Source of the DNA: Rhodospirillales bacterium
Lineage (GTDB): Bacteria; Pseudomonadota; Alphaproteobacteria; BOG-932; Roseiterribacteraceae
DNA: 41,763 bases
NCBI GenBank assembly: GCA_028291365.1
Contig: JAQGIE010000042.1
Location: 1-41,763, forward strand
Direction of reading: 5' to 3'
The position numbers were made by a program, and so were the translations under genes. Shown here piece by piece: positions 30,765 through 32,046 of this stretch. The notes beneath the pieces were generated by a model that saw nothing but the letters and a program-made list of their open reading frames with translations, was not told the origin of the DNA and searched no databases. The first letter of the stretch is position 1; every line of letters starts with the position of its first letter.

Positions 30765-30935
30765 TTCTCCTGAATCCAGTGGAATTCTGGAACAGTTGCG
30801 GCCGTCCAGGCGATTCCGCACCCGGAAGCTGATGTTAACCAAGGCCGCATTTCCGTCCTATTCAGGGTAGTGACTCCGGCAATGCTTCGGATAGGTTCCG
30901 ACGCCCGTAACACATCTCCAAGGAGACGCTGTCAG

Positions 30936-31226
30936 ATGAAGTCCGTTCTCGCGCTCGCCGCTCTCGTTGCTTTCGCCGCCGCCCCTGCGGTTGCGAAGGA
31001 TTGTGGCGCCCGCCCCGCCGCCCCCTCGGTTCCGAGCGGCAAGACCGCTACCGAAACCGACATGAAGACGGCCGGCGGCAAAGTTCAGGCCTATACCAAG
31101 GCGATGAACGATTACATGAAGTGCCTGGTCGATGAGGCCAACTCGGCGCGTAACGAAGGCACCAAGGTGTCGAAGGACTACGAAGTCGCGGTCAACGAGT
31201 ACAACAAGACGCCTGCGAAGCAGTAA
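30936..31226 (+). CDS. Small secreted protein with one two-cysteine module (96 aa)
   Basis: Family not recognised. A signal peptide (MKSVLALAALVAFAAAPAVA) leaves a mature protein of about 76 residues with Cys23 and Cys63, 39 residues apart. After the first cysteine comes a Pro-rich strand, then a charged amphipathic helix ending in YMKC, then a second helix ending in NEYNKT. The same pattern appears twice in the next gene. The cysteines probably form a disulfide between helices. AAGGAGA at 30919-30925 serves the ATG at 30936. It lies 171 bp after rpoN, so it likely has its own promoter. Confidence 0.8.
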   Translation: MKSVLALAALVAFAAAPAVAKDCGARPAAPSVPSGKTATETDMKTAGGKVQAYTKAMNDYMKCLVDEANSARNEGTKVSKDYEVAVNEYNKTPAKQ

Positions 31227-31306
31227 CCACCCGCAGCAGTCATGGCAGCGGCTGTCCGCGAGTGGCCGCGCCACCACTTTTCCCCGGGACGATCACGAGA
31301 GCCACG

Positions 31307-31987
31307 ATGATCCGCCAAGCTTCTGCATTCGCCGCCGCCGTCTTTGCCTTGTTCGTCGCCGCGCAGGCGCAGGCCCAGTCGGGCGCGCCGGCCGTGACCC
31401 CCGCGAACTGCAAGGAGCCGGTGGTCCCCAAGCAGCCCGCCGCGAAGATGACGAGCGAAGAGCTCAACGCGCTGACCAAGCAGTATCAAGCTGCCGTGAA
31501 AGACGGAAACTCGCGCTACATGCAGTGCGCGAGCGACGCCGATTGGGGCAAGTTCCAGAAGAAGGTCGAAGCCTACGGCAACAAGCTCAGTGCCGAGGTC
31601 GCCACCTTCAACAAGACCAATGGCCGGCCGCAGACCACGCCCGCGAGCTGCACGCCGATGAAGGCGCTCGACTTTCCTGCCGTGCCGACGCGTGAGCATG
31701 TGGTGCAGATCCAGGCCGATCTCAAAGTCGCCCAGGCCGACTTCAACGATCGCTATGCCAAATGCGCCGCGACCAAGGATGCGGTCGAGGCCAAGAACAA
31801 CATCGAAAAAGCCGTGACCGCCTTCAACGCCAAGGCGCAGCAGATCAATGCCGAGACGCAGCGCGTCAACAGCGAAACCCAGAAGGCGAACGAAGAAGCG
31901 CTGAAGCAGCAGGAAGAGAACGCTTCCAAGCAGAAGAGCAACACGCCGAGCGGCGGCTCCAGCAATAGCCCCGGCACGCGCTACTGA
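31307..31987 (+). CDS. Secreted protein with two copies of the two-cysteine module (226 aa)
   Basis: Family not recognised. A signal peptide (cleavage near AQAQA, about residue 24) precedes two tandem modules. Module 1 has Cys35 and Cys74 (YMQC) and ends in TFNKT; module 2 has Cys115 and Cys153 (RYAKC) and ends in TAFNAK. Both start PxxC and contain a Pro-rich turn and a helix, as in the neighbouring 96-residue protein. The tail at about 178-215 is a Gln/Glu/Asn/Lys-rich coiled coil, then a Ser/Gly end. It lies 80 bp downstream of its paralogue and the pair is closed by a strong terminator. Confidence 0.8.
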   Translation: MIRQASAFAAAVFALFVAAQAQAQSGAPAVTPANCKEPVVPKQPAAKMTSEELNALTKQYQAAVKDGNSRYMQCASDADWGKFQKKVEAYGNKLSAEVATFNKTNGRPQTTPASCTPMKALDFPAVPTREHVVQIQADLKVAQADFNDRYAKCAATKDAVEAKNNIEKAVTAFNAKAQQINAETQRVNSETQKANEEALKQQEENASKQKSNTPSGGSSNSPGTRY

Positions 31988-32010
31988 TCTTCCGCATCAG
32001 CGGTACGACG

Positions 32011-32046
32011 AAAGCGGCGGGCCCAAAGCCCGCCGCTTTTTTGTTT
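32011..32046 (+). terminator. Intrinsic terminator after the cysteine-module genes
   Basis: AAAGCGGCGGGC (32011-32022) pairs perfectly with GCCCGCCGCTTT (32028-32039) around a five-base loop and leads into TTTTTTGTTT. A textbook rho-independent terminator. Confidence 0.93.

Follow-up and report, generated by a model that had tools for sequence, protein, structure and literature searches.

In the pancreatic polypeptide (PP) fold an N-terminal segment is folded back antiparallel on a helix, and three prolines interdigitate with helix residues (PMC12981483). Miniature proteins based on avian pancreatic polypeptide have been reviewed (PMC10125317). The hormones of the PP/NPY group share with the cysteine-bounded unit of the bacterial protein A described here three prolines at every third residue, a G-x-x-A-T turn and an amphipathic helix in the same register. 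In contrast to the hormones, A and its neighbour B belong to a bacterial family, are predicted to be exported, putatively disulfide-stapled, and carry a long helical tail. The hormones have an amidated R-x-R-Y C-terminus, whereas A ends with TPAKQ and B with PGTRY lacking an amidation glycine. The Pfam hormone profile matched none of 40 unit sequences at E-values up to 10, and the likeness is presumably a convergence and not a homology. The best sequence matches of the unit in the PDB were the PPalpha miniproteins (5lo2, 6gwx, 8es2), which are synthetic, 36 residues long and have neither a disulfide nor a tail. LprI-like (DUF1311) and Spy/CpxP (LTXXQ) proteins resemble A and B in being small, exported and helical, but neither profile matched A, B or any of 35 relatives.

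The window, the whole analysed stretch of 41,763 nucleotides, encodes A and B next to each other. We interpret both as exported members of an undescribed family of the Pseudomonadota, in which a disulfide-stapled polyproline-II (PPII)/alpha hairpin is followed by an amphipathic helical tail, and assign this reading a probability of about 0.65. The features of the locus are:

30861 to 30935, plus strand: leader of A, 75 nt, 71 of 75 positions identical between the two species of the genus
30936 to 31226, plus strand: gene A, 96 aa, one unit (Cys23 to Cys63) and a helical tail, predicted to be exported; a reading frame with orthologues at the same locus in both genera of the bacterial family
31002 to 31124, plus strand: unit of A, Cys23 to Cys63, model pLDDT 93-98
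31125 to 31208, plus strand: helical tail of A, residues 64-91, predicted from model and heptad analysis
31307 to 31987, plus strand: gene B, 226 aa, two units and a long helical tail, predicted to be exported; in the genomes searched, present in the window's genus only
31409 to 31528, plus strand: unit 1 of B, Cys35 to Cys74, prolines at +3, +6 and +9, from hhalign and a shuffle test
31649 to 31765, plus strand: unit 2 of B, Cys115 to Cys153, diverged proline stretch, from hhalign to unit 1
31775 to 31936, plus strand: predicted long helix of B, residues 157-210, weak heptad pattern, low-confidence model
31955 to 31984, plus strand: C-terminus of B, GSSNSPGTRY, identical in the second species and preceded by a diverged linker
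32010 to 32040, plus strand: intrinsic terminator common to A and B, 13-bp stem and T run, strong

Both N-termini have, by inspection, a hydrophobic, signal-peptide-like segment, as a preliminary description of the sequence had proposed. That description had also assigned one shared terminator to the two genes. The terminator was located after B and the same search found none between the genes, thus co-transcription of A and B as one message is plausible. In Rfam only a sub-threshold match to Xoo2 was obtained, over the terminator (32010-32040), and none for the 75-nt leader of A. G001, a second species of the genus, carries intact copies of both genes with identities of 63 % for A and 60 % for B; its contig matches Rhodospirillales bacterium TMPK1, a strain that has been described as Roseiterribacter gracilis (PMC11164329). 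Between the two species dN/dS was about 0.6 for A and about 0.4 for B, below 1 in both cases. A and B are real genes under purifying selection, albeit fast-changing. The leader of A was better conserved between the species than the coding DNA of mature A (71 %) and is possibly a regulated promoter or leader. A SPGTRY-stop pattern was present once per genome in both species, only at the end of B, and the terminal GSSNSPGTRY may be a short recognition tail.

The gene order lptC-lptA-lptB-rpoN-A-pepF is common to the window's genus and a sister genus (G002, G003), and rpoN-A-pepF was observed in both genera where the locus could be read. In the sister genus, which lacks B, A and pepF are separated by about 40 bp; in the window's genus this space is taken up by B, which is thus a genus-level addition beside A. 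The earlier suggestion of a lineage-specific slot after rpoN agrees with this arrangement. Genes for ribosome hibernation (HPF) often come after rpoN; in this genome they are located elsewhere. Among 372 genomes of the class, B had no convincing full-length homologue outside the genus, only weak partial matches. Within the genomes searched, the two-unit protein is restricted to the genus.

The presence of one two-cysteine unit in A and two in B was confirmed, with Cys1-Cys2 distances of 40 residues in A, 39 in unit 1 and 38 in unit 2 of B. The further marks noted from the sequence were all present: a proline-rich stretch after the first cysteine in all three units, an aromatic residue ahead of the second (Y60 in YMKC, Y71 in YMQC, Y150 in YAKC) and endings at YN90 in A and at FN102 and FN174 in B. 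In A, P27, P30 and P33 occupy every third residue, a turn SGKTAT follows, and M43, A46, V50, Y53, M57 and Y60 form the heptad face of the unit helix; L64, A68, A71, G75, V78, Y82, A85 and Y89 take the a/d positions of the tail. The tails, proposed to be coiled coils, showed a heptad pattern in A (p 0.005) and in residues 157-200 of B (p 0.006), weaker for residues 157-210 (p 0.035). Among 57 relatives, Cys1 and Cys2 were 39 or 40 residues apart in 52, an aromatic residue stood at C2-3 in 55 and at C2-10 in 53, and prolines clustered at C1+3/4, +6/7 and +9/10. The length past C2 ranged from 32 to 76 residues; with the near-constant C1-C2 distance, this indicates a putatively stapled head of fixed length and a variable tail. 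Both cysteines are invariant in the family alignment, in which conserved histidines or other ligands, CxxC and CxxCH were not found. The family framework, i.e., signal peptide, C1-C2 of about 39-40 residues, proline triad and aromatic residue at C2-3, was present in A and its relatives and complete in unit 1 of B. Unit 2 lacks the proline triad, its prolines P117, P124 and P127 lying at +2, +9 and +12, and has no aromatic residue at C2-10.

Membership of A in this two-cysteine family is virtually certain. A paralogue with 38 % identity is present in the same genome. Relatives of A were detected in 25 of 385 genomes of the class, where a single genome may carry as many as seven, and in a phylum-wide sample of 397 genomes 15 had them. 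Single-unit proteins that have a signal peptide and share the framework are spread over Alpha- and Gammaproteobacteria; Niveispirillum, Haliea, Steroidobacter and Woeseiaceae are among the named genomes, and no member was found on plasmids. In Pfam and NCBIfam, A, B and 35 relatives had no convincing match, only stray weak ones, and a PHROGs search with A and its relatives was likewise without a convincing match. The preliminary description was therefore right that neither protein falls into a named family; that the unit is widespread in Pseudomonadota and not confined to this locus had been missed. No paper on the two-cysteine family was found. Judged by Pfam, NCBIfam and the literature searched, the family is new; the fold type is already known. 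A lipoprotein reading of Cys1 was rejected, as by inspection A and the relatives lack a lipobox. Short-tailed A-type members beyond the order of the window were observed at two loci (L032 and L103, genomes G314 and G048), on the contigs searched not beside rpoN. The second family member of the window's genome (L002 / L104, G000 contig C134) has 111 aa. A polA-sized gene lies beside the second family member in the second species (L065), and L085, a family member of a related genome, has the same type of neighbour.

The genomic surroundings of other members vary by lineage; the assignments of neighbour genes to loci were partly made from tallies and sizes. Tandem copies are common elsewhere in the family, as in Niveispirillum and Steroidobacter, and a Niveispirillum member neighbours a sucC-like ATP-grasp gene. 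In Halieaceae, a SPOR-domain gene precedes the member and a SIS/GATase gene, probably glmS, follows it; the family gene is located just downstream of the SPOR-domain gene at L076, L077, L079, L084, L089, L090 and L095. In Steroidobacter-like genomes moeA/moaA lie downstream of members, and a position just upstream of moeA/moaA was seen in some Gammaproteobacteria (L072, L080, L082, L087, L088, L094). A conserved neighbour was thus discarded as a functional clue, and no functional partner could be deduced. Because the neighbours differ, we tentatively favor a free-standing role as a rigid periplasmic module for binding or oligomerisation, an adaptor or scaffold and not an enzyme, although at somewhat less than even odds. 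Small periplasmic inhibitors or stress chaperones, comparable to lysozyme inhibitors or Spy/CpxP, would also be small, exported, multi-copy and, putatively, disulfide-containing, and the fast evolution of A and B (dN/dS about 0.4-0.6) is a trait that inhibitors often have. But the proteins matched neither LprI nor LTXXQ nor any inhibitor family, and a conserved target enzyme beside the genes is absent, which makes this alternative to a scaffold unlikely.

Affiliation of B to the family is very probable. A template was derived from the other members (C1-C2 of 38-42, aromatic residue at C2-3, prolines at C1+3/4, +6/7 and +9/10). None of 300,000 shuffled versions of mature B gave a unit with the full proline triad, and two template units arose in a fraction of 1e-5. 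Alignments with hhalign yielded P 2.4e-6 for the B units against the family, P 1.5e-5 for unit 1 against the family and, in agreement with the duplicated and fused module proposed from the sequence, P 1.6e-5 for unit 1 against unit 2 with two-sequence profiles. Neither unit has the second aromatic residue. B could instead be a separate coiled-coil protein unrelated to A, with four cysteines similarly spaced by chance. Such a coincidence would suit the HMM, which alone scored B barely above shuffles, the weak direct match of unit 2 to the family (P 0.016) and the failure of profile comparison to resolve a specific nearest single-unit relative; in view of the shuffles, the unit 1 alignments and the adjacency to gene A, we regard it as improbable. 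B plausibly arose in the window's genus by a duplication beside A and a subsequent internal duplication. A itself is only a candidate parent of B, since profiles of A-type members were no closer to B than other profiles.

The fold was approached by structure prediction and by comparison to the PDB. An AlphaFold2 model of A, based on 36 sequences, had a mean pLDDT of 86.5, and 93-98 for the mature part as far as residue 90 or so; an extended segment (residues 21-39) preceded a single helix of 52 residues (40-91). The model of B was of low confidence (pLDDT 59.8), but it too placed an extended segment before a helix in each unit. A profile of the C1-C2 segment was searched against 177,635 distinct PDB sequences. 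The six best matches were PPalpha-Tyr, its redesigns and pancreatic polypeptides (E 0.1-0.24), the PPalpha designs being aligned almost end to end, and a profile of the whole family repeated this picture. Individually, E-values of 0.1-0.4 are not significant, and the matches, being mutually related, amount to a single observation; a reversed-sequence profile, used as control, retrieved none of them. In the alignment, M43, A46, V50, Y53, M57 and Y60 of A fall without gap on L18, Y21, L25, Y28, L32 and Y35 of PPalpha-Tyr, and P27, P30 and P33 on P3, P6 and P9, the turn of A being one residue longer. A proline at every third residue facing a heptad of aromatic and hydrophobic helix residues was seen in A and its relatives, and partly in the B units. 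The estimated lengths are similar, with 31 Å for ten PPII residues of 3.1 Å and 35 Å for 23 helix residues of 1.5 Å. Foldseek with the model of A against the PDB returned no PP-fold structure, only two matches with E above 7; the PP-fold targets have only 36 residues. Matches of B to 14-3-3-like helices were discarded, with an rmsd of about 14 Å from a low-confidence model. Proline periodicity, helix register, cysteine spacing and model agree, and a PP-fold-like PPII/alpha hairpin is the likely structure of the unit.

The preliminary description had instead proposed a helical hairpin pinned by a disulfide, with Cys1-Cys2 joining two antiparallel helices. The helical propensity is indeed high, and in longer members a second helix past Cys2 could fold back. 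But Cys1 lies within a proline-rich, non-helical stretch in 57 of 57 members, a proline at every third residue fits PPII and not an alpha-helix, and the confident model of A has a single helix; the helical hairpin is probably wrong, and we give it little credence. Binding of metal or haem, or intermolecular disulfides, would accord with only two cysteines, both invariant, and with the extra-cysteine variants, but seems quite improbable given a rigid Cys1-Cys2 spacing across the PPII/helix span and an alignment devoid of conserved ligands and CxxC-type motifs. The variants themselves (L042, L043, L045) have extra cysteines inside the unit, which suggests a second disulfide.

For the PPII/alpha hairpin the following course may be envisaged. 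A Sec signal peptide would export A and B. Cys1, directly past the signal peptide, would open a short PPII stretch with proline, or another small or hydrophobic residue, at each third position, and a PDGxTA turn would return the chain as an alpha-helix that would receive the prolines on its a/d face (Met, Ala, Val, Tyr, Met/Leu, Tyr). Cys2, three residues past the last tyrosine, would come to lie level with Cys1, and oxidation of the DsbA/DsbB type would join the two and lock the hairpin; a DsbB is encoded in the genome of the window. The heptad-patterned tail would continue the helix and likely pair with another copy or a partner. In B, two hairpins in series would place a pair of heads on a single, longer tail. 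The wider proposal, a natural stapled PP-fold family convergent with vertebrate PP and PPalpha, with one-headed A and two-headed B assembling via their tails in the periplasm, is speculative and rather doubtful.

The reading provides a testable fold for an unannotated family that extends over Alpha- and Gammaproteobacteria and may have as many as seven paralogues in one genome. If true, a tertiary fold that is among the smallest known would have been reached independently in bacteria, in a disulfide-stabilised form, and dozens of natural sequences would become available for miniprotein design. It would also give a starting point for finding out what the two-cysteine proteins do in the cell envelope.
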